Source: Lachnospiraceae bacterium
GTDB lineage: Bacteria > Bacillota > Clostridia > Lachnospirales > Lachnospiraceae
Assembly (NCBI GenBank): GCA_017546025.1
Contig: JAFYYS010000011.1
Location: 1-49,342, forward strand
DNA: 49,342 nucleotides
Reading direction: 5' to 3'
In this document: piece by piece, positions 16,292 to 26,231 of the stretch
How positions within the stretch are numbered: position 1 is the first letter of the stretch
How the letters are laid out: every line of letters starts with the position of its first letter
Notes under the pieces: generated by a model
Told to the model about the DNA's origin: nothing
Seen by the model: the letters and a program-made list of their open reading frames with translations, nothing else
Databases searched by the model: none
Position numbers and translations under genes: made by a program

Positions 16292-16720
16292 TCAGGCGCG
16301 CTCCTTCAAAAAGCGGATTGCCTCACGGTATCCCGCAAAGCCGAGCCCCATATACGTTTTCACGCAGGCCATTCCCGCGTAGGAAATCTGACGGAAATCC
16401 TCGCGCTTTGAAACATCAGAAATATGAACCTCAACGGCCAGCACCGGAACCGCCTTCAAAGCGTCCAGAATCGCGATGCTCGTGTGGGTATAAGCGGCCG
16501 GATTAATAACGATTCCGTCATATACTCCGGGCGTTTTCTGAATCCAGTCGACAAGGTCGCCTTCGTGGTTGCTCTGCACACACTCGACGCTGACGCCTTC
16601 CTCGACTGCAACATTTTGAATATAGTCCAAAAGGTCCACATAGCTGTCACTGCCGTACACGTTCGGCTCGCGCATGCCGAGCATATTGATGTTGGGACCG
16701 TTGATCACAAGGATTTTCAT
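16292..16720 (-). CDS. aroQ: Type II 3-dehydroquinate dehydratase
   Basis: 142 residues, the normal size of the dodecameric type II enzyme that converts 3-dehydroquinate to 3-dehydroshikimate. Motifs are ILVINGPNINMLGMREPNVYG (with the catalytic Tyr in REPNVYG), ECVQSNHEGDLVDWIQ and INPAAYTHTSIAI (with the catalytic His), and AVEVHISDVSKREDFR (substrate-binding). It is the last gene of the aro operon and overlaps aroE/K by ATGA. It supplies the only dehydratase step seen in the operon, so the pathway is complete without AroD. Confidence 0.97.
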   Translation of the reverse strand: MKILVINGPNINMLGMREPNVYGSDSYVDLLDYIQNVAVEEGVSVECVQSNHEGDLVDWIQKTPGVYDGIVINPAAYTHTSIAILDALKAVPVLAVEVHISDVSKREDFRQISYAGMACVKTYMGLGFAGYREAIRFLKERA

Positions 16721-17952
16721 GCTTTACCTCCCAAGATGCCAAGAATGGCTTCGGCCTCCGCCGCGCCCCCGCCGCCTTCCGTAACGGTCACGGTCGCATC
16801 TGAAAAATGACGATACATCGGTTCCCGTTCCGCGGCTAATTCTTCAATCGGACGCCACTTTGAGAGCGGCCGGTGGTCCTTCGCCAGGTTTTTCGGATCG
16901 CGGTAAAGCCGTATCACCGTTCCGTTCTGATGAAGGATGTTATAGTTCTCCTCTCTCGTCACGGCGCCTCCGCCCGTTGAGAGGATAATACCGGAAAGTC
17001 CCGCCAGTTCTTTAAGAACTGCCGTTTCGTTGGTCCGAAAGACTGCTTCCCCGTTTGCAAGAATCTCTTCCTCGGGGGTTTTGCCGAATTTCGTCCGGTA
17101 ATATGCGTCCGCGTCGTAAACCGGCTTGCCGGTCAGCTCGCCGAGCCTTTTTGCGACGGTTGATTTGCCGCAGCCGGGCATGCCGATCAGGACGATGTTT
17201 GCAAGCTCCTTCGTGAGCGTCTCGTAAATCCGGTCAATTTCACCATCGTCAATCGGTGCTCCGGTGAACCGTTCCGCGCTCCTTTTAGCCTGCGCGACAA
17301 GCATGTAAAGGCCGTTCTCGTAAGCAATTCCGCGCTTTTTCGCGGCAAGCAGAAGCTCTGTACGGAGCGGATTATAGATGATATCGAGGACGCCCTCCAG
17401 CTTCGGGAAGACATCTAAATCAAGCGGACTGACGCCGGTATTCGGATACATGCCGACCGGGGTCGTATTTACCACAAGCGCGGCGTCACGATGCCGGTCG
17501 AGATTCGTATAGTTGTTCTCGCCGGAACGGCTGATGACCGTGACCTCGGCCCCCTGTTCGTTAAGGACATGGCAGACCGCAACCGATGCGCCGCCGCTTC
17601 CGAGAACGAGCACCTTGCGGCCCTTAACGGGCACGCCGGCACGCTCGAGCATCTTCTGAAAACCGTAAACGTCGGTGTTGTCGCCGAAGAGTCGTCCCGA
17701 GGCGTCTTTTACGATGGTGTTGATGCTTCCGACCTTTGCCGCTGTCTCACTGACCTCGTCCATATAGGCGAAAACCGTCTTTTTGTAGGGGATCGTCACG
17801 TTTAATCCGCTGAATTCCCCGTTTCGCAGGAAGCTTTCCACTTCCTCCGGCTTTTTCTCAAAAAGGCAATAGTCATACGAACCGAGCATCTTATGAATGC
17901 GCGGCGAATGGCTGTGTCCCAGTTTTTCTCCTAACAGTCCGCAGGATTGCAT
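16717..17952 (-). CDS. aroE/aroK: Bifunctional shikimate dehydrogenase - shikimate kinase (AroE-AroK fusion)
   Basis: 411 residues in one uninterrupted frame. Residues 1 to about 245 are AroE: GHSHSPRIHKML (shikimate-binding Ser), NVTIPYKKT (catalytic Lys57), GDNTDVYGF (Asp94), the Gly-rich loop VLGSGGASVAV, VNTTPVGMYPN and LVAQAKRSAERF. Residues 252 to 411 are AroK: P-loop GMPGCGKST (257-265), VYDADAYY, STGGGAV and DHRPLSKW. The linker is only a few residues. ATG 17952 lies 1 bp after the pheA stop, with GAGGAAA inside the end of pheA; the open frame continues upstream but that part is pheA in another frame. It catalyses two consecutive-order steps, dehydroshikimate to shikimate to shikimate-3-phosphate. 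Confidence 0.95.
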   Translation of the reverse strand: MQSCGLLGEKLGHSHSPRIHKMLGSYDYCLFEKKPEEVESFLRNGEFSGLNVTIPYKKTVFAYMDEVSETAAKVGSINTIVKDASGRLFGDNTDVYGFQKMLERAGVPVKGRKVLVLGSGGASVAVCHVLNEQGAEVTVISRSGENNYTNLDRHRDAALVVNTTPVGMYPNTGVSPLDLDVFPKLEGVLDIIYNPLRTELLLAAKKRGIAYENGLYMLVAQAKRSAERFTGAPIDDGEIDRIYETLTKELANIVLIGMPGCGKSTVAKRLGELTGKPVYDADAYYRTKFGKTPEEEILANGEAVFRTNETAVLKELAGLSGIILSTGGGAVTREENYNILHQNGTVIRLYRDPKNLAKDHRPLSKWRPIEELAAEREPMYRHFSDATVTVTEGGGGAAEAEAILGILGGKA

Positions 17953-17953
17953 C

Positions 17954-19096
17954 TCAGATTTCCTCGCTGTAGCTGCCCAGATACTGGAAGAACTCGCACG
18001 TTTCCTGAAGCTCTCCGATGAGTCTTGTGAGGTTCGGCGAGTAAACCGGCGTATCCAGATCGAAATAGAACATGAACTCAAACTCGCGCTCCGGAATCGG
18101 ACGGCTTTCGAGCTTGTTCAGGTTGATGCCGAGCGCATAGAAGCGGGAGAGCATCCGGTAAAGGGAACCCTGTTCGTGCGGTAAGGTCATCATAAGGCTG
18201 GTCCGGTTGGCGCCGGGATAGATTTCAAGATCCTTTGAAATGCAGATGAAACGGGTGTAGTTGTTATCCGTATTCTGCACGGAATCGGCAAGGCTGATTA
18301 AGCCGTACTGCTTGCGGCTCTGATCCGTTGCAAGCGCCGCGATGTCCGTTCTGCCGCTCTCCGCCACCATCTTGGCAGCAGTTGCGGTATTCTCGCACGC
18401 GATGACGCGGACGTCCTTCAGACCGCTCAGGAATGCCGAGCACTGCTGGATTGCCTGTTCGTGCGAGTAAATCTCGCGGATGCCCGAAAGCGTTGCGCCG
18501 GGAAGCGCCAAAAGGTTATGGTTAATCTTCAGGCGGACGCTTCGCACGATATAGAAATGATGTTTCATCATCAGGTCATAGACCATGTTCACGGAACCGG
18601 CATTGCTGTTCTCAAGCGGAATCACACCGTACCGGCAGAGTCCCTTCTCAACTGCCTGGAATACCGATTCAAAGCCGGAGCAGAAGAAAATCTTGGGATA
18701 ACGGAAGATTTTTTCGCAGGCCGCCTGCGAATTGGCGCCCGTAACGCCCTGGCAGGCAACACTCGGATTGTCCATGAACATCTTGTCGGTCTTCTCGACT
18801 GCCTCGCGGATCCGCTCGGTCAGCTCGCTCTTCTTGTCCGCATGACGGTACTGATAGCTTCTGCTCAGCTCAAAAAGCACCGAAAACAGAAGGGGCGTGT
18901 ACTCCCGCAGCTCCTCGGGGGTGTTATCAAGAACGTTCAGAATCTTCTGGCGCTCCCGCTCGGGGTCGCGCACCGGCAGGTTGTTCGCCTCCTTGTACTC
19001 CGCAATCAGGCGGGCCACATCCATTCTCTGTGCGAACAGTTCAAGAAGCTTACTGTCAATCCGGTCAATCTGTTCGCGGTATTCCTGCATATTCAT
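17954..19096 (-). CDS. pheA: Chorismate mutase / prephenate dehydratase (P-protein)
   Basis: 380 residues in three parts. An AroQ-class chorismate mutase (about 1-90: EYREQIDRIDSKLLELFAQRMDVARLIAEYK) is followed by prephenate dehydratase (about 110-285, with the NYTRF motif containing the catalytic Thr and SNAGSVNMVYDL), then a C-terminal ACT domain (about 295-380, with the ESRP Phe-binding motif in LESRPIPEREFEFMFYFD). It converts chorismate to phenylpyruvate and should be inhibited by phenylalanine through the ACT domain. Translation is coupled to aroC by an ATGA overlap at 19093-19096. Confidence 0.97.
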   Translation of the reverse strand: MNMQEYREQIDRIDSKLLELFAQRMDVARLIAEYKEANNLPVRDPERERQKILNVLDNTPEELREYTPLLFSVLFELSRSYQYRHADKKSELTERIREAVEKTDKMFMDNPSVACQGVTGANSQAACEKIFRYPKIFFCSGFESVFQAVEKGLCRYGVIPLENSNAGSVNMVYDLMMKHHFYIVRSVRLKINHNLLALPGATLSGIREIYSHEQAIQQCSAFLSGLKDVRVIACENTATAAKMVAESGRTDIAALATDQSRKQYGLISLADSVQNTDNNYTRFICISKDLEIYPGANRTSLMMTLPHEQGSLYRMLSRFYALGINLNKLESRPIPEREFEFMFYFDLDTPVYSPNLTRLIGELQETCEFFQYLGSYSEEI

Positions 19097-20166
19097 CGGT
19101 TCAGTTCCTTTCTTCTTCCTAACAGGGCATCATATACGGCTATGGCAGCAGCGGCCTCTACACACGGCACTGCTCTCGGGACGATGCACGGATCGTGCCT
19201 GCCCTTTATTTCAAGCGTTGTCTCCTCGCCGGTCGTGAGGTCTACGCTTTTCTGCGCTTTGGCAATCGACGGTGTCGGCTTGAAAGCTGCCCGGAATACA
19301 AGCGGCATGCCATTCGTGATGCCGCCGAGGATGCCGCCGCAGCGGTTCGTCTCGGTCTGCACCTTTCCGTCCTTCATGCAAAACGCATCGTTGTTCTCGC
19401 TTCCTCTGAGCTTCGCCGCGGCAAATCCCACGCCGAACTCGATGCCCTTCACAGCCGGAATGCCGAATACGGCCTGCGAGATTCTCCCTTCCATGCCGTC
19501 AAAAAGCGGTCCGCCGAGACCGACCGGAAGTCCCGTCACGACACATTCGATGATGCCGCCGACGGAATCTCCTTCGGAAAGCGCTTTCGCGATGCATTCC
19601 TGCATCTTCTGTCCCGCTTCCGCGTTGATAACCGGAAAATCGGCCTGCACTTCCTGCGTCAGAAGATCTCCCGGATCCTCAATGCCGCCGATGGCCTGAA
19701 TCCGGGCTTTAATTTCAATTCCTTCGCGTTTTAAAATCTGCTTGCAGATGCCGCCCGCGATGCAAAGCGGTGCGGTAAGCCTTCCTGAAAAATGCCCGCC
19801 GCCGCTCATGTCCGCGCTGCCGTCGTATTTGACATAGGCCGTGTAGTCGGCATGGCCGGGTCTCGGAACGGTTCTCAGGTTTGCATAGTCGCCGGGCCTA
19901 ACGTTTTGGTTCCGGATGATGGCCGTAAGCGGCGCGCCGCATGTTTTTCCGTTCGCCAGTCCGCACTGGATTTCGGGCTCGTCCGCTTCTTTTCGGGGCG
20001 TCGACCACGCGTTGTTTCCGGGTGCGCGGCGTGCAAGAAACGCCTTGAGCTCGTCAAGATCAACCGCTTCGCCTGCCGGAAGACCTTCGATTGTCACGCC
20101 GATTGCCGGCGCGTGCGACTGTCCGAATATCGATATCTGAATGTTCTCACCGTAAACTTCCGACAT
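19093..20166 (-). CDS. aroC: Chorismate synthase
   Basis: 357 residues, full length. Signatures are FGQSHAPAIGVTIEGLPAG, SADMSGGGHFSGRLTAPLCIAGG and SEGDSVGGIIECVVTGLPVGLGGPLFDG, plus RHDPCIVPRAVPCVEAAAA near the C terminus. It converts EPSP to chorismate using reduced FMN. The start is 1 bp after the aroA stop and the end overlaps pheA. Confidence 0.97.
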   Translation of the reverse strand: MSEVYGENIQISIFGQSHAPAIGVTIEGLPAGEAVDLDELKAFLARRAPGNNAWSTPRKEADEPEIQCGLANGKTCGAPLTAIIRNQNVRPGDYANLRTVPRPGHADYTAYVKYDGSADMSGGGHFSGRLTAPLCIAGGICKQILKREGIEIKARIQAIGGIEDPGDLLTQEVQADFPVINAEAGQKMQECIAKALSEGDSVGGIIECVVTGLPVGLGGPLFDGMEGRISQAVFGIPAVKGIEFGVGFAAAKLRGSENNDAFCMKDGKVQTETNRCGGILGGITNGMPLVFRAAFKPTPSIAKAQKSVDLTTGEETTLEIKGRHDPCIVPRAVPCVEAAAAIAVYDALLGRRKELNR

Positions 20167-20167
20167 G

Positions 20168-21466
20168 TTACCGCTCCCCTTTCTCTGCTGTTTTTTCTAT
20201 TGTTAAGCTGTTGTAATCCGTAAAGAAGGACGGGTAGGATTTGGCGGCGCACTGCGCATCCAAAATCCGTACCGGACCGTCCGTAAGTCCTGCTGCCACA
20301 GCGGCCGACATCGCAATCCGGTGATCCTTTGCCGAATCCGTATCGCCTCCGTGAAGCTGCTTTCCGCCGCGAATCAGAAGACCGTCCTCCGTCTCGGTGA
20401 TGTCTGCGGAAAGGGCGGTAAGCATCGCCGTCGTCGTCTGAAGCCGGTCGGATTCCTTCATTCGAAGCCTCTCGGCGTGTTCAATCACCGTCTCGCCGTC
20501 CGAACCCGCCCCTAGAACCGCCAAAACCGGCACAAGGTCGGGGATTTCCGAAGCATCAATCCTCTGTCCCTTAAGATTGCCGCTTCTGACAAGGACTGAG
20601 GTCTCATTTTCCACGACCTCGGCACCGAAATCCCGAAGAATCGCCAGAATCCGGCGGTCGCCCTGGCAGGAATCCTGCCGAAGCCCCGTTACCGTGATGC
20701 CCTGCTTCGAAAAAGCGCCCGCAACAAGCGGAAAAGCCGCGCCGGACCAGTCTCCCTCAACATAGGTTTCCTTCGGCGCTTTGTAGCACTGCCCTCCCGG
20801 AATCCGGTAGCCCCAATCGGTCTTTTCAAACACGATTCCGGCCTCCGAAACCGCCTGTTCCGTCATCGTGATGTACGCAACGGACTCGCGTTTTCCGGTA
20901 ATGGTAAGCGTGCTGTCGCCCGAAAGCATCGGAAGAGCAAACAGAAGCCCGGAAATGAACTGCGAGGAAACATCGCCGGGAAGCGTGAAATCTCCTGCCG
21001 TAAGCTGTCCGGAAAGCTTCAAAAGACTGCCCTCCTGCGTAACGCTCACGCCGTGCTTTTGAAGTTCTCCCGTCAGCGCCCCGTGAGGCCTGTTCGGAAG
21101 CTTCCCTTCCATGACAAATGTGACACTCGCCCCGAGCGCAGCTGCCACCGGCATCAAAAACCGAAGCGTGGAGCCGCTTTCCTTACAGGGAAGCGCTCTC
21201 GGGCAGTCCGTAAACGCCTTTTGGGTGTCCTTAGCCTTCGCCTTAACGGGCTCCACCGCGATGACACCGTCGCCCACGGTGAATGTTGCCCCGAGCGCGC
21301 TCAGGCAATCCATCGTAGCCGTGATATCGTCAGACATGGTGTCGCAATTTACCTTAGCCGGCTCCTTCGAAAGCGCCGCCGTGATCAGAAGCCTGTGCGC
21401 GGCGGATTTCGAAGCGGGAGCCTTCACCTGTCCGTACCTGGTTCCGTTTTGAACCGTTTCTGTCAT
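20168..21466 (-). CDS. aroA: 5-enolpyruvylshikimate-3-phosphate synthase
   Basis: 432 residues with the two inverse-alpha/beta-barrel domains. Signatures are PASKSAAHRLLITAAL, ESGSTLRFLMP, LPNRPHGALTGEL, GDVSSQFISGLLFALP, GDWSGAAFPLVAGAF, RLRMKESDRLQTT and AKDHRIAMSAAVAAGL. It condenses shikimate-3-phosphate with PEP. ATG 21466 has AGGAGG 6 nt upstream and overlaps the aroB stop as ATGA. The residues around the PEP site (SGST rather than the NAGT of E. coli-type enzymes) are those of the more divergent Gram-positive type. Confidence 0.96.
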   Translation of the reverse strand: MTETVQNGTRYGQVKAPASKSAAHRLLITAALSKEPAKVNCDTMSDDITATMDCLSALGATFTVGDGVIAVEPVKAKAKDTQKAFTDCPRALPCKESGSTLRFLMPVAAALGASVTFVMEGKLPNRPHGALTGELQKHGVSVTQEGSLLKLSGQLTAGDFTLPGDVSSQFISGLLFALPMLSGDSTLTITGKRESVAYITMTEQAVSEAGIVFEKTDWGYRIPGGQCYKAPKETYVEGDWSGAAFPLVAGAFSKQGITVTGLRQDSCQGDRRILAILRDFGAEVVENETSVLVRSGNLKGQRIDASEIPDLVPVLAVLGAGSDGETVIEHAERLRMKESDRLQTTTAMLTALSADITETEDGLLIRGGKQLHGGDTDSAKDHRIAMSAAVAAGLTDGPVRILDAQCAAKSYPSFFTDYNSLTIEKTAEKGER

Positions 21467-22521
21467 GCAAGGCCTCCTGCTTTGAGCCATTCGTGAAAGG
21501 TTTCTTTCGAAACCGAAAGTACTTTACAGCTGCCGACAGCCTCCGGATATACAATCCGCATCGAGGTTGCCGTATTCTTCTTATCGTTCGATACCGCGGC
21601 GGACACTTCGTCTGCCGTGAAGGCGGTTTCGGTCGGAAGACCGTACGCCTTAATAAGCTTTACAAGCCGCTCGGGAACTGTTTCGTCGCAAAAACCCATG
21701 GCATGCGCCGCACGTGCGATGATTGCCATGCCGATGGCAACGCCCTGACCATGCGGAACGGTGAACCCGCTCAAAAGCTCTACGCCGTGGCCTGCGGTAT
21801 GCCCGAGATTCAAAAGCATCCGAAGCCCGCGGTCAAACTCGTCGGCCTCCACATAATCGCGCTTTACGGCGACGCAGCAGCCGATGATTTCTTCATACAT
21901 TTCCTTTACCGGCTGTTCCGAAAGCCTTGAAAACAAAGGCTCTCCGAGAAGCATGCCGTATTTGATGATTTCGGCGCACCCGTTGCGGTATTCCTCTTCG
22001 GGAAGCGTCTTCAGCGTATCAATATCGCAAATCACAAGCGCCGGCTGACAGAAGGCGCCGACCTGGTTCTTTCCGCCCGGAAGGTCAACCGCGGTCTTGC
22101 CGCCGACAGAGGAATCCACCGCTGCAAGAAGCGACGTCGGCATCTGCACATACGAAATGCCGCGCTGATATGTGGCCGCGGCAAATCCTGCCAGATCGCC
22201 GACCACGCCGCCGCCCAGTGCAATCACGGAATCGTCTCTTGCAAGCCCTGCCTCGCACAGTTTCTGCAGCAGATCCCCGTAAACCGTCAGGTTCTTGCTC
22301 TGTTCCCCGCTTTTCATGACATAGGAGTATGTCTGAAAACCGGCCGCGGAAAGCGAATTAACAAGGCTTTCGCCGTATAACGGATAGACGTTGTCGTCGC
22401 TGACGACCATCAGCCGCTTCGCAGGAAGAAGCGCAGAAAGCATCGCCGGTGCCTCCTTCAAAAGCCCCGCGCCGATTCGCACTTCATAAGGTTTTCCTGT
22501 TTTTACGGTTACGGACGTCAT
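21463..22521 (-). CDS. aroB: 3-dehydroquinate synthase
   Basis: 352 residues. Signatures are SGEQSKNLTVYGDLLQKL, IALGGGVVGDLAGFAAATYQRGI, QMPTSLLAAVDSSVGGKTAVDLPGGKN, the metal-binding region EIIKYGMLLGEPLF, and LNLGHTAGHGVE. It needs NAD and a divalent metal and converts DAHP to 3-dehydroquinate. ATG 22521 has AGAGGAGG upstream and overlaps the tyrA stop by ATGA. Confidence 0.97.
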   Translation of the reverse strand: MTSVTVKTGKPYEVRIGAGLLKEAPAMLSALLPAKRLMVVSDDNVYPLYGESLVNSLSAAGFQTYSYVMKSGEQSKNLTVYGDLLQKLCEAGLARDDSVIALGGGVVGDLAGFAAATYQRGISYVQMPTSLLAAVDSSVGGKTAVDLPGGKNQVGAFCQPALVICDIDTLKTLPEEEYRNGCAEIIKYGMLLGEPLFSRLSEQPVKEMYEEIIGCCVAVKRDYVEADEFDRGLRMLLNLGHTAGHGVELLSGFTVPHGQGVAIGMAIIARAAHAMGFCDETVPERLVKLIKAYGLPTETAFTADEVSAAVSNDKKNTATSMRIVYPEAVGSCKVLSVSKETFHEWLKAGGLA

Positions 22522-23348
22522 CCGTCTACCTCCTCTTTTCTCCTTCGCCCTTCATCCAAAAGGCGCTTCATTGTCTCGCGGTCATCGGCCGCAAGCGCGT
22601 CGCGGTACGCCTGCATATTCTGCATCAGCGTATCGATTTCTCTCATCAGATTGTCCTTATTATCAAAGAAAAGCTGCGTCCACATCTCGGGATTCAGCCA
22701 CGCCACACGCGTCAGGTCGCGGTAGCTTCCGGCCGACATGCCGGTATGAATCTCGGCCGTCGGGCTCTTCACATACGCGTTCGAAACGACATGCGCGAGC
22801 TGTGAGGAAAATGCGATGACTTTATCGTGGGTTTCCGCACTCGTCACGGTAATGCTTCCGAAACCAGCCGGCGAAAGTAACGTTTTGACGCGGTCGAGAA
22901 ACGTGATGTCGTCATTTTTCTTCGGGACAAGCACCATCGGAGCGCCTTCAAACATGTCAGGCTTCGCGTATTTGAACCCGGAAAACTGCGTGCCGGCCAT
23001 CGGATGGCCGCCGATGTAGGTAAATCCGTACTTTTCCGCGAGTTCAAACCCGGAATCAACCACGTTGCCCTTCGTGCCGCAGCAGTCGATGACGACCGGC
23101 TTCGTGCCGAAGAACGGTCCCTTCTCCTCCATGTAGGAAACCGCTGCCTGCGGGTACGTACAAATCAGAATCAGGTCGCATTCCGGGATGGTTTCGTCAT
23201 TCAGGTCCTCTGAAACGACGCCGGAAATCTTCGCGAACTGAAGAATTGCTTCATTTGTATCAAAAGCCGCCACAGTGTGTCCGGCCTTGCTGTATGCCTT
23301 GGCGAACGATCCGCCAATCAGGCCGAGGCCTACGATTCCGACTCTCAT
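22518..23348 (-). CDS. tyrA: Prephenate dehydrogenase
   Basis: 276 residues. The N-terminal NAD-binding fold is VGIVGLGLIGGSFAKAYSKAGHTVAAFD; the catalytic region includes GGHPMAGTQFSGFKYA and the His/Arg block AFSSQLAHVVSNAYV. No C-terminal ACT domain is present, so direct Tyr feedback by an ACT domain is not expected. It converts prephenate to 4-hydroxyphenylpyruvate for tyrosine. The gene overlaps both neighbours by ATGA. Confidence 0.94.
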   Translation of the reverse strand: MRVGIVGLGLIGGSFAKAYSKAGHTVAAFDTNEAILQFAKISGVVSEDLNDETIPECDLILICTYPQAAVSYMEEKGPFFGTKPVVIDCCGTKGNVVDSGFELAEKYGFTYIGGHPMAGTQFSGFKYAKPDMFEGAPMVLVPKKNDDITFLDRVKTLLSPAGFGSITVTSAETHDKVIAFSSQLAHVVSNAYVKSPTAEIHTGMSAGSYRDLTRVAWLNPEMWTQLFFDNKDNLMREIDTLMQNMQAYRDALAADDRETMKRLLDEGRRRKEEVDG

Positions 23349-24346
23349 CTGCTTGCCTCCCGAACGGCCTGAATCTTGCTGTAAAGCTTCGCAAACTCCT
23401 CAGGACGAATGGACTGCGCGCCGTCGCAAAGGGCATGCGGCGGGTCGTTGTGAACCTCAATCAGAAGGCCGTCACAGCCTGCAGCCGTAGCCGCAAGTGC
23501 CATCGGCGGAACCATGCGGGCAAGGCCCGTTGCGTGGCTCGGGTCAACAACTACCGGCAGATGCGTCAGCTCGTGAAGCATCGGAACGGCAGCCAGATCA
23601 AGGGTATTACGGAGGTAATCGCTGTAGGAACGGATGCCGCGCTCGCAAAGGATGACGTTCTCATTTCCGCTCGCCATGATGTACTCGGCGCTCATCAGAA
23701 GTTCCTTAAGGGTACCGGCGATGCCTCTCTTTAAAAGAATCGGCTTCTTCACATGGCCGAGTTCCTTCAGAAGGTCGAAATTCTGCGTATTTCTTGCGCC
23801 GACCTGCAGTACGTCAACATCCTCGAAAAGCGGCAGATCGGAAGCGTTCATGATCTCCGTGACAATCGGAAGACCCGTTTCCTGTCTTGCAATCTTCAAA
23901 AGCTCGATGCCCTCTGCCTTCAGACCCTGAAAATCGTAGGGTGATGTACGGGGCTTGAACGCGCCGCCGCGGAGCATGTTGGCGCCGGCTGCCTTAACAG
24001 CCTTTGCGATGCCGACAATCTGCTCCTCGCTCTCAACGGAACACGGTCCGGCGATGACGGTGAAGTTGCCGCCGCCGATTTTCACGTCGCCGACCTCCAC
24101 AATCGTGTCCTCCGGATGGAACTTCCGGTTCGCGCACTTAAAGGTTTCCGTAACACGCTTTACGGTATCCACAATATCAAGGCTTGCAACGAGATCGGTG
24201 TCAACGCTGCTGGTGTCGCCGATCAGACCGAGAACGGTCTGGAACTGCCCTTCCGAAACATGCACGCCGAGTCCGAGACTCTTGAACCAGTCAATCAGCT
24301 GTGCCTCTCTTTCGGCATCCACATGGGGCTTTAATACGACTATCAT
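23345..24346 (-). CDS. aroF: 3-deoxy-7-phosphoheptulonate (DAHP) synthase, AroF type with N-terminal ferredoxin-like domain
   Basis: 333 residues. Residues 1-70 are the ferredoxin/ACT-like extension (MIVVLKPHVDAEREAQLIDWFKSLGL). The rest is the class I-beta barrel: FTVIAGPCSVESEEQIVGIA, LRGGAFKPRTSPYDFQGL, DVLQVGARNTQNFDLLKELG, KPILLKRGIAGTLKELL, CERGIRSY and PVVVDPSHATG. It commits PEP and erythrose-4-phosphate to the pathway. It is the first structural gene of the aro operon, 66 bp after a leader-peptide attenuator, with AAGGAGG as RBS. The N-terminal domain is known to mediate feedback in relatives such as Thermotoga. Confidence 0.97.
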   Translation of the reverse strand: MIVVLKPHVDAEREAQLIDWFKSLGLGVHVSEGQFQTVLGLIGDTSSVDTDLVASLDIVDTVKRVTETFKCANRKFHPEDTIVEVGDVKIGGGNFTVIAGPCSVESEEQIVGIAKAVKAAGANMLRGGAFKPRTSPYDFQGLKAEGIELLKIARQETGLPIVTEIMNASDLPLFEDVDVLQVGARNTQNFDLLKELGHVKKPILLKRGIAGTLKELLMSAEYIMASGNENVILCERGIRSYSDYLRNTLDLAAVPMLHELTHLPVVVDPSHATGLARMVPPMALAATAAGCDGLLIEVHNDPPHALCDGAQSIRPEEFAKLYSKIQAVREASR

Positions 24347-24412
24347 CTTTTATCCTCCTTACTCTATGGCAAATGTCATACGACTTCGCATTTTCCTTTA
24401 TATCCAAAAAAA

Positions 24413-24436
24413 GCGGCCCAGGTTAATCTGTGCCGC
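24413..24436 (-). terminator. Attenuator terminator upstream of aroF
   Basis: On the - strand: stem GCGGC-A-CAG / CTG-G-GCCGC (8 paired bp, one mismatch) with a 6-nt loop, followed by seven T (24412-24406). It lies downstream of a leader-peptide ORF and 66 bp before aroF, so transcription must pass it to reach the operon. Confidence 0.88.
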
Positions 24437-24485
24437 ATAGGATTCATGATTCTTATCACAAATGATTTGCACCGCAAATTAACCT
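24420..24485 (-). promoter_or_regulatory. Antiterminator pairing of the aro leader
   Basis: On the - strand AGGTTAAT (24485-24478) is perfectly complementary to ATTAACCT (24427-24420), which is the loop and part of the right arm of the terminator. GTGC (24472-24469) can also pair with GCAC (24433-24430) in the terminator left arm. The two folds exclude each other. The first segment begins at the last base of the leader stop codon, so a ribosome at the stop would cover it and let the terminator form. Confidence 0.8.
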
Positions 24486-24553
24486 TACCACAAAAAGCCG
24501 GTAAAGTAAAAGAAAAACCAATAATAAAATGCATTTTCAGCGGTTCTTTTCAT
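24485..24553 (-). CDS. Aromatic amino acid leader peptide of the aro operon (22 residues)
   Basis: The peptide reads MKRTAEN followed by AFYYWFFFYFTGFLW and a TAA stop: six Phe, three Tyr and two Trp, 11 aromatic residues out of 22, with nine of them within codons 9-17. Two ATGs are adjacent (24556 and 24553). The second has AGGAG at 6-nt spacing and is preferred. The SD and start lie inside the last codons of the XRE gene in a different frame. Codon content, size, and the terminator with an alternative fold directly downstream match the leader peptides of trp, phe and his operons. By analogy, ribosome stalling at aromatic codons when charged tRNA is scarce would permit transcription of aroF-aroQ. 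No T-box sequence is present. Confidence 0.88.
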   Translation of the reverse strand: MKRTAENAFYYWFFFYFTGFLW

Positions 24554-25172
24554 CATTTGCTCCTGTATTTTGTCTGCTGACAATGGTTGTGTACCCTTTG
24601 GTCCGCGAAACAACGGACTTTTTCGCCTGTTCAACGGAATCGCGGAGAATCGTGATGTCCGGGGCGACGTTGCGCGGGCAGACCAGCTCACCGAGCGATT
24701 TCTCGAGCTCGTAGGTCTCCAAAACCTGTGTGGCGACGGCAACTCTTCCCCGCATGCTCAGATGGCAGTGCGCCGTGAACAGCTGCAGCAGGGAATACCA
24801 CGGGCTTCCGTGCCGGCCGGCCATGAGATAAAGCAGTTCGCGCTTCTCCTTCGCCGTCAGGTTCTGCACGAGAAAATCCAGTGCCTCTCCGATTGTTTCG
24901 TCCCCGTCCTCCGGGTCGATGCTGTCGAAGAACTCCGGGAAGAGATATGCAAGATAGTAGGGAAGCGGGTTCATTCCAAGCACACGGAACCATTCACAGC
25001 CGGTGAAAAGATCCGGAAACGTGACGCCGTTCTCCCAGTTCTGAACGGTTTTCTTGGATATTCCGAGGCCCTTGGCCATTTCCTCCTGCGTTTTGCCTGC
25101 ATCCTGCCGGGAAACGGACCAAACCTGTGCAAAACGTTTCCGACGTTCCTCTGTTTCGTCATATCCGGTCAT
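24537..25172 (-). CDS. XRE-family transcriptional regulator
   Basis: 211 residues. An N-terminal Cro/C1-type helix-turn-helix (about residues 14-62: FAQVWSVSRQDAGKTQEEMAKGLGISKKTVQNWENG) is followed by about 150 residues of mostly helical sequence without a recognised domain (ALDFLVQNLTAKEKRELLYLMAG ... LLQLFTAHCHLS). ATG 25172 has GGAGGAG 6 nt upstream; a TTG further up is in frame but lacks an RBS. Its last 17 bp overlap the start of the aro leader peptide, so regulator and aro operon may share a transcript. Whether it controls the aro genes or the divergent DegV gene is unknown. Confidence 0.85.
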   Translation of the reverse strand: MTGYDETEERRKRFAQVWSVSRQDAGKTQEEMAKGLGISKKTVQNWENGVTFPDLFTGCEWFRVLGMNPLPYYLAYLFPEFFDSIDPEDGDETIGEALDFLVQNLTAKEKRELLYLMAGRHGSPWYSLLQLFTAHCHLSMRGRVAVATQVLETYELEKSLGELVCPRNVAPDITILRDSVEQAKKSVVSRTKGYTTIVSRQNTGANDEKNR

Positions 25173-25352
25173 GTCTGTCTCCTCCGAAATGCCGATTGGC
25201 TTACACAAAAGAAAAATCTTTCTTGCAAATACCCTTCTTTAGTGGTAACATATTTCTCGATTGGCATCAGTATACTTTCCGCCGGACAATTTGTCAACCC
25301 CGGCTTTTATTTTTCTTTCCTTTGGGGGGAAATGCCACGAAAGGAACCCGAC

Positions 25353-26231
25353 ATGTATATTATTACCTGCTGCACTTCCGTTGATTTAGAAGAATCCTGG
25401 CTCAAGGAGAACGGCGTCCGCTACATTCCGTTTCACTATGAAATGGACGGCGTCCCGCATGTGGACGACCTCGGCCGCACCATGCCGTATTCCGAGTTTT
25501 ACGAGGCGATCCGAAACGGCTCGGTTTCGCATACTTCCCAGATCAACATCATGGAATACTACTCCTTCTTTAAGGATATTTTCGATGAGGGGTACGATAT
25601 TCTTCACGTGGCATTTTCCAGCGGCCTTTCAGGCTCTTTGAATTCCGCGCAGAATGCCGCCGCAATGCTTGCCGAGGAGTATCCGGACCGCGTTTTGAAG
25701 ATTGTCGACTCCGTTAACGCTTCGGCCGGCCACGGCATCCTTGTCGAGTGGGCAGTGGAGCACAGAGACGCCGGCATGAGCCTCGAGGAAAATGCCACAC
25801 TGCTCGATTCCGAGCGGATGAACATCCAGGCATGGTTCTTCACGACGACCTTAAAGTACCTGATTCGCGGCGGACGTGTTTCGAAGGCTGCCGGTCTCAT
25901 CGGTGAAACACTCGGCATCTGCCCTCTTTTGATGATTGACGCAGAAGGCAAGCTGATTCCGGTGGAAAAGGTGCGCACGAAGAAGAAGGTTGCGCTCGCT
26001 TTACTGGATAAAATGCTTTCCGTTACCGAAAACGGCGCCGATTACAGCGGCCCGTGCCATATCTGCCATTCCGACTGTCTCGAGGATGCGCAGATGATGA
26101 TTGCTTTGATTGAAAGCCGCTTCCCGAACCTGATGGGGCAGATTAAGCTCCACGAGGTCGGCACAATCATCGGAAGCCACACCGGCCCCGGCACGATCGG
26201 CGTGTTCTTCCGCGGCGTAAGAAAAGACTGA
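25353..26231 (+). CDS. DegV family fatty-acid-binding protein (FakB-like)
   Basis: 292 residues with the DegV layout: MYIITCCTSVDLEESWLKENGVRYIPFHYEMDG, the Ser-containing motifs RNGSVSHTSQIN and VAFSSGLSGSLNSA, KIVDSVNASAGHG, LKYLIRGGRVSK, and the C-terminal GTIIGSHTGPGTIGVFF. Family members bind a fatty acid and, as FakB, present it to a FakA kinase; no fakA gene is in this window. The open frame runs far upstream, but ATG 25353 has AAAGGA at correct spacing and is where family similarity begins. It is divergent from the XRE gene. Confidence 0.92.
   Translation: MYIITCCTSVDLEESWLKENGVRYIPFHYEMDGVPHVDDLGRTMPYSEFYEAIRNGSVSHTSQINIMEYYSFFKDIFDEGYDILHVAFSSGLSGSLNSAQNAAAMLAEEYPDRVLKIVDSVNASAGHGILVEWAVEHRDAGMSLEENATLLDSERMNIQAWFFTTTLKYLIRGGRVSKAAGLIGETLGICPLLMIDAEGKLIPVEKVRTKKKVALALLDKMLSVTENGADYSGPCHICHSDCLEDAQMMIALIESRFPNLMGQIKLHEVGTIIGSHTGPGTIGVFFRGVRKD

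Follow-up and report, generated by a model that had tools for sequence, protein, structure and literature searches.

An aromatic-codon leader peptide upstream of the aro operon of a Lachnospiraceae bacterium: a probable transcription attenuator with counterparts in other Clostridia

The aro operon and its leader region

The window, by which we mean the whole 49,342-nucleotide stretch of Lachnospiraceae bacterium DNA analysed here (contig JAFYYS010000011.1), carries an operon for aromatic amino acid synthesis on its minus strand. The first gene is aroF (23345–24346), which encodes DAHP synthase and scores above cut-off with NF006421 and TIGR01361; the search of its own genome returns one aroF match at E ≤ 0.001. 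It is followed by tyrA, encoding prephenate dehydrogenase (22518–23348; PDH_N and PDH_C), aroB (21463–22521; TIGR01357), aroA (20168–21490; TIGR01356), aroC (19093–20166; TIGR00033), pheA, encoding chorismate mutase plus prephenate dehydratase (17954–19096; CM_2 and PDT), aroE and aroK fused in one ORF (16717–18081; Shikimate_dh_N and SKI), and aroQ, encoding a type II dehydroquinate dehydratase (16292–16720; TIGR01088), all on the minus strand and all above cut-off with the families named. The ORF-to-ORF gaps range from −128 to +1 nt, the value of −128 depending on a TTG start probably placed too far upstream; the true start of the aroE-aroK ORF probably lies inside the annotated ORF. The preliminary description of this locus spoke of a complete aro operon. 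This holds for the seven steps to chorismate and for the Phe and Tyr branches but not for the Trp branch, as a family search of the ORFs of the operon finds no trp genes.

Directly upstream lies a gene for an XRE-type helix-turn-helix protein (HTH_3; 24537–25208, minus strand), whose stop overlaps the start of the leader described below. The sole minus-strand match to a sigma-70-like site between 24300 and 25400 is at 25297–25269 (11/12), upstream of the HTH gene, and because the best such site is placed there the HTH gene may share the operon transcript. A relative of this gene occupies the same place in locus L002 (62% over 215 aa), the only one of the 139 loci searched in which it stands beside another aroF.

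Between the HTH gene and aroF is a short ORF, MMKRTAENAFYYWFFFYFTGFLW (24485–24556, minus strand), preceded by the Shine-Dalgarno sequence AGGAG (24560–24564, starting at 24564). Two ATG codons are available, at 24556 and 24553, and the stop codon TAA is at 24487–24485, so that the ORF has 23 codons counted from the first ATG and 22 from the second. It contains 11 aromatic codons (6 Phe, 3 Tyr and 2 Trp), nine of them consecutive, in the order F Y Y W F F F Y F (24503–24529); its best nine-codon span is thus aromatic at nine of nine places. One Trp codon is fourth in this run and the other is the last sense codon. Re-reading of the minus strand bears out the ORF of 22 codons with AGGAG and 11 aromatic codons that had been reported, with the length counted from the second ATG, and the positions first given for the leader, its stop, the complementary segments and the terminator are all correct.

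The RNA downstream can be divided into four segments. Segment 1, CTTTACC (24500–24506), lies within the last Tyr-Phe-Thr codons and pairs with the start (GGTAAGG) of segment 2, GGTAAGGTTAATTTGCGGTGC (24469–24489), which contains the stop codon and was delimited by alignment and pairing tests. Segment 3, GCGGCACAGATTAACCT (24420–24436), defined by pairing tests, forms both the 3′ arm of an antiterminator with segment 2 and the 5′ arm plus loop of an intrinsic terminator hairpin, GCGGCACAGATTAACCTGGGCCGC (24413–24436), in which it pairs with segment 4. In the fold of the window a spacer hairpin (24440–24464) sits inside the antiterminator. The terminator begins 48 nt past the leader stop, as first described, and is followed by a tract of seven T (24406–24412). 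It had also been called strong, a description somewhat too generous for what is a moderate hairpin, with a stability of −12.3 kcal/mol and an internal mismatch; a strict pattern scan of 24300–25400 lists no terminator, this one included. The segment AGGTTAAT (24485–24478) starts on the final base of the stop codon and, as had been noticed, is complementary to ATTAACCT (24427–24420) in the loop and arm of the terminator; in the fold this match extends to 11 contiguous pairs and is part of a longer helix. Folding of this region, proposed earlier as a check, upholds the pairing: the fold of 24418–24490 has an energy of −26.3 kcal/mol (z −4.4), and none of 200 shuffles is equally low.

Known RNA families offer no identity for the element. 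A search with Rfam 15 at gathering score gives only two tRNAs elsewhere in the window and nothing over 24340–24620, where the best weak match is to L20_leader (19.1 bits against a cut-off of 58.7), and identification with a known Rfam element is rejected. T-box control of the operon is likewise rejected, as there is no T-box match at gathering score in the window and no match to the T-box family (RF00230) in 24340–24620 even at E ≤ 10.

Leader peptides upstream of aroF in related bacteria

Upstream regions of other aroF genes, from 330 to 60 nt before the gene, were scanned in stop-free spans of nine codons, the score being the highest count of Phe, Tyr and Trp codons in any span; a leader was called at six or more aromatic codons of nine. 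The first set comprises 79 regions, the window and 78 loci taken from the best 80 of more than 592 candidates; two loci (L045 and L077) were left out as they have no upstream sequence. Three broader samples were drawn: a family sample of 29 loci read, of 74 genomes with a match; a class sample of 109 regions, which come from 105 of the 214 genomes with a match and were chosen among the best-scoring matches listed; and a phylum sample of 40 read of 211. Four regions are common to the first set and the class sample. Five regions of the class sample and four of the phylum sample have a non-standard aroF start at the given place and were kept.

A leader is present in 68 of the 79 regions of the first set (those from the best 80 of more than 592), in 12 of 29 in the family sample and in 67 of 109 in the class sample, which with the four repeats removed amounts to 146 of 213 distinct upstream regions. 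Dinucleotide shuffles reach six of nine in 9/395, 3/140 and 38/535 cases for the first set, family and class respectively, and the opposite strand does so in 1/79, 1/28 and 5/107. At seven of nine, 51 of the 79 aroF regions of the first set qualify, as against none of 395 shuffles and none of 943 other upstream regions in the 80 fetched loci, 18 of which reach six. Phe and Tyr codons alone are sufficient for the threshold in 66 of the 79 loci. Among the other codon groups scored, Leu reaches it in 33 of 79; we read this as the same T-rich run translated out of frame. In the phylum sample 12 of 40 regions reach six of nine, one of which, L274, resembles a T-box region rather than a leader. One of the leaders, that of L054, belongs to a cultured relative, Aminicella lysinilytica DSM 28287. 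The leader observation is real and exceeds chance.

By eye the leaders fall into three types: type I, which includes the window; type II, which extends into KVKVIFAAK-like residues; and type III, which is FSWGYYYFSAG-like. The type III leaders are Clostridium-like and comprise many of the loci L173–L227; they have SWG or FWG at a constant position and a longer C-terminal part, SAGYLFCKK, and several of them end over a segment CTAATGAG that is complementary to CTCATTAG in the terminator. A further group of short ORFs, in L007 (the same as L122), L014, L123 and L124, shares a core resembling YSAFY(F/Y), and all end in RWRKF followed by the stop codon. Leader peptides do not usually end in so constant a sequence, which may point to an arrest peptide or to a conserved RNA segment.

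Other elements are found at the same place in some relatives. L113 and L116 have T-box leaders (115 and 120.5 bits) before aroF in place of a leader peptide. The leader-less loci L111, L117, L118, L119 and L120, and also L114, share an operator-like sequence, CACTTTAAAC..(G/C)TTAAA..TTTTACAGTG, before aroF, and looser forms of it occur upstream of aroF in L011, L092 and L096. It is probably the site of a regulator.

Conserved pairings and predicted attenuation

The end of the aromatic run and the RNA downstream of it align well across 27 loci that share the window's type. The alignments used here, of 27, 26 and 25 rows, consist of loci picked for carrying the segment 2 motif, and the shuffles against which the pairings are judged take no account of relatedness. 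Within these 26–27 selected relatives the pairings 1:2, 2:3 and 3:4 are all kept through compensating changes. The antiterminator 2:3 (16 pairs, 27 loci) has 90.2% of its cells paired, with 20 cells changed on both sides; none of 500 shuffles reaches its paired fraction, its number of both-side changes or its covariation score, although two of five covariation measures are unremarkable (reached by 24 and 194 of 500 shuffles). Slid out of register, the same segments pair in 32.9 to 46.3% of cells. For the terminator 3:4 (9 pairs) the paired fraction is 92.1%, both partners have changed in 21 cells, and none of 500 shuffles equals it on any measure; unconstrained RNAalifold returns the terminator helix only. 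The pairing 1:2 is a third helix, absent from the preliminary description. Its outer pairs are nearly invariant over 26 loci, and its inner, variable pairs are kept in 59 of 78 cases compared with a shuffled mean of 40.6, a value as high being found in none of 5000 shuffles. This hairpin overlaps the control codons, and the pairing accounts for the conservation of the Thr codon after the run. Formation of 2:3 excludes both 1:2 and 3:4.

The terminator itself is widely kept. An intrinsic terminator is found before aroF in 135 of 147 leaders; counted within the last 170 nt, there is one in 136 of 147 leaders, 29 of 67 leader-less regions and 5 of 147 shuffled sequences, and several of the 29 leader-less regions concerned have a leader just below threshold. 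In 92 of 135 leaders the segment between the run and the terminator outdoes 95% of shuffles in pairing with the 5′ arm of its own terminator, and in 53 of 135 this pairing outdoes that with 95% of arms swapped in from other loci. Alignment of the leaders upstream of aroF in relatives, another check proposed at the outset, thus shows that the leader, the terminator and the two exclusive folds are conserved, with covariation.

A covariance model, R1, was built from 25 loci and searched over 391 genomes of the class. It gives 15 matches in 14 of these genomes, all before genes of aromatic metabolism and none before an unrelated gene; the downstream ORF is aroF in 13 cases (window included), a chorismate mutase in one and a paaK-like gene in one, and eight of the twelve aroF cases outside the window coincide with aroF matches of the protein search in the class genomes. 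The low rate (14/391) implies that R1 detects only part of the family. A search of 57 fetched sources with R1 yields 43 matches at E ≤ 1, with 16 sources lacking a match. Of the 43, 41 (including three training members) fall before aroF where a leader is expected, and the remaining two are on the reverse strand of the terminators of the window and of L003; 26 held-out loci are matched at the expected place at E ≤ 0.01. A second copy of the leader in the window's own genome is rejected, as apart from one match at E 8.8e-18 R1 gives nothing there below E 1.3.

Two R1 matches concern genes other than aroF. An R1-type leader lies before a chorismate mutase ORF in L240 (genome G414) and before a paaK-like (phenylacetate-CoA ligase) gene in L245 (G456); in the window's own genome the paaK-like gene has a T-box instead (L082). 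Both elements thus stand before the paaK-like gene as if controlling the synthesis of aromatic amino acids from arylacetates.

The effect of translation was modelled by folding the window RNA downstream of a ribosome set on each codon in turn. With the ribosome anywhere from the third codon through the last Phe codon, the probability of 2:3 is at least 0.90, whereas on the last Leu, Trp and stop codons the probability of 3:4 is 0.99, 0.99 and 0.96. By these folds read-through would be favoured by a stall at a Phe or Tyr codon anywhere in the leader or at the first Trp codon, and termination by arrival at the stop codon. Of the two Trp codons the first is placed to act and the last falls past the switch point. 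Without any ribosome the antiterminator is favoured in the window RNA.

Such a clean equilibrium switch is seen in 11 of 135 leaders, window included; in most, the terminator wins at any ribosome position. A general equilibrium switch is accordingly rejected: it holds for the window and not for most relatives, which would have to switch during transcription. If the RNA is truncated ahead of segment 4, segment 3 is sequestered in 126 of 135 stalled leaders, compared with 70 of 135 with shuffled spacers. In this test 63 of 135 leaders beat 95% of their own shuffles; the window does not, 15% of its shuffles reaching it.

We conclude that the element in the window is very probably a ribosome-mediated transcription attenuator, a reading to which we give a probability of roughly 0.87 from the sequence comparisons. 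The earlier proposal of an attenuator read by the ribosome gains support from the conservation of leader, terminator and exclusive folds, each helix with compensating changes. In the proposed mechanism a shortage of charged Phe- or Tyr-tRNA would stall the ribosome in the aromatic run; segment 2 would then be left free, 2:3 would form, and RNA polymerase would enter the operon. With ample charged tRNA the ribosome would reach the stop codon inside segment 2 and cover that segment, and 3:4 would end transcription. In the window, with a Trp codon at the fourth place of the run, a shortage of Trp may act likewise.

Amino acids probably read and relation to known systems

The preliminary description had the leader sensing Phe, Tyr and Trp together. 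This is supported in part. Codons for the first two are conserved: over 147 leaders the core residues are 23.0% Phe and 21.2% Tyr, and both occur in 146. Trp makes up 1.27% of residues and is present as well in 34 of 147 leaders. TGG occurs 37 times in frame and 67 times in the two other frames together, no commoner in frame than the out-of-frame counts predict, and this composition rejects Trp as a family-wide signal. A tree of 44 AroF proteins (43 relatives and the window), ten of them labelled by eye as having Trp-bearing leaders, requires seven changes in this character, at least five of them forced. Shuffles need 9.2 on average and 22 of 500 are as low as seven, so that the clustering of Trp is weak; a single origin of Trp in the leader, found in 0% of bootstrap trees, is rejected. 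The window groups firmly with L002 (100/99), and the Trp-less L005, L009 and L026 share with it a weakly supported group of eight. By eye, the window, L002, L003 and L004 all have TGG at one distance from the end of the run, with the codons around it changed. On leader composition and the AroF tree we hold that sensing of Phe and Tyr is the conserved core; sensing of Trp in the window is plausible from the folding model.

The strongest competing account keeps the attenuator and narrows its signal to Phe and Tyr, the Trp codons of the window being neutral and Trp being read by a T-box before trpE. It agrees with the scarcity of Trp and of in-frame TGG, with the scattered distribution of Trp-bearing leaders on the AroF tree, with the presence of Phe and Tyr branch genes and absence of trp genes in the operon, and with the position of trpE in the same genome, 363 nt after a T-box match. 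Set against these are the constant position of TGG in the window and its three neighbours despite the changing codons, the fixed place of Trp (S-W-G/S or F-W-G) in many Clostridium-like leaders, and the fact that a single stalled codon can in principle suffice for attenuation. We regard this account as a serious contender that falls somewhat short of even odds. Narrower still would be a sensor of Phe shortage almost alone, the Tyr codons being passive, as in AroR of Corynebacterium, whose Phe-Tyr-Phe leader is described as raising aroF transcription under limitation for Phe and not for Tyr (PMC11802643). This seems unlikely here, as Tyr is about as frequent as Phe, nearly every leader holds both, and a Tyr codon adjoins segment 1 in the conserved Tyr-Phe-Thr ending.

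Two other accounts dispense with amino acid control. The short ORF could encode a functional peptide, or an arrest peptide sensing a small molecule, with the terminator a by-product; the conservation of leader composition over long distances and the fixed RWRKF end in L007, L014, L123 and L124 would suit this. We consider it very improbable, since the sequence drifts outside the Phe/Tyr run, the length varies, the C-terminal end shifts frame over conserved RNA (window compared with L002), and the conserved letters near the end are accounted for by base pairing. That the ORF is a chance, hydrophobic-looking open frame next to the terminator of the HTH gene is scarcely credible. A terminator some 100 nt after that gene, and a sole sigma-70-like match on that strand upstream of it, are what such an arrangement would present; yet no control region of 943 reaches seven aromatic codons of nine, three helices covary, and aroF genes in many unrelated surroundings have the leader, the HTH gene standing beside one of the 139 loci searched (L002).

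Control of aromatic amino acid genes in Firmicutes is usually discussed in terms of T-boxes and TRAP. T-boxes bind one uncharged tRNA directly and are not translated. The window's own genome has ten T-box matches, five of them above the family cut-off; they include matches before tyrS (95.9 bits) and a paaK-like gene (106.1 bits), both above cut-off, and before trpE (90.7), pheS (88.3) and a TrpB-like gene (89.3), all below it. These T-boxes serve the same amino acid family and also act by attenuation, but each reads one tRNA, whereas the leader in the window would sense through translation, and because translation is the sensor several amino acids could be read at once. As judged from sequence, the genome seems to leave genes specific to one amino acid to sensors of a single tRNA, and the common pathway to a sensor that is translated. 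Taken further, one translated element would act as an OR gate for shortage of any aromatic amino acid and control the common shikimate trunk, with single-tRNA T-boxes for trpE, tyrS and pheS; it would be old and widespread in Clostridia, exist in three sequence types, and have been overlooked because its RNA is poorly conserved and its peptide too short to annotate. We offer this fuller picture tentatively, as a possibility below an even chance.

These observations suggest that many Clostridia, gut species included, may run the whole shikimate pathway through a ribosome reading Phe and Tyr, and at times Trp, codons. That a trunk pathway feeding several products needs a multi-product sensor is a testable reason for the use of a leader rather than a T-box. 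Types I–III form a comparative set for studying the replacement of one kind of element by another before aroF, among leader peptides, T-boxes and operator-like sites.

Several published systems resemble the element in part, and in their light the original claim of novelty was too strong. AroR of C. glutamicum (Neshat 2014) is described as a Phe-Tyr-Phe leader before aroF (PMC11802643, PMC4046766, PMC7356990), at which ribosome stalling raises aroF transcription in response to Phe and not Tyr (PMC11802643). Like the window leader it precedes the DAHP synthase gene and contains codons for Phe and Tyr; it differs, so far as the published descriptions allow comparison, in being actinobacterial and in having three residues in place of a nine-codon aromatic run. 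The uORFC-13-1 motif, also comparable by description only, shares the uORF, aroF and the terminator: it is reported as a Phe-coding uORF before aroF with an adjacent intrinsic terminator and predicted attenuation, with 24 representatives in Acholeplasma and unknown environmental sequences only, and Phe alone is discussed in the available text (PMC8632094). The pheL-pheA and trpL systems of E. coli, as described, have the same leader peptide, control codons, terminator and antiterminator, but they read one amino acid each, control terminal branch genes and belong to another phylum (PMC11802643).

The further statements that known leaders read one amino acid and, by implication, that Firmicutes lack leader peptides do not stand against the accounts available. 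The E. coli ilvGMEDA leader (PMC6123439) and the Listeria rli60 leader, the latter by experiment (PMC5864092; see also PMC6123439), are reported to read the branched-chain amino acids, and his leader-peptide attenuators are reported in Firmicutes (PMC2965389, PMC9413887), adding to the branched-chain example of rli60. Among open-licence papers in PubMed Central we found no description of aromatic leaders before aroF in Clostridia. As described, ilvGMEDA and rli60 are like the window element in that one leader serves several related amino acids and a shared pathway, and unlike it in being branched-chain and not aromatic; what is new here, as far as searched, is the spread of such leaders across Clostridia that also use T-boxes, together with their control of a whole pathway.
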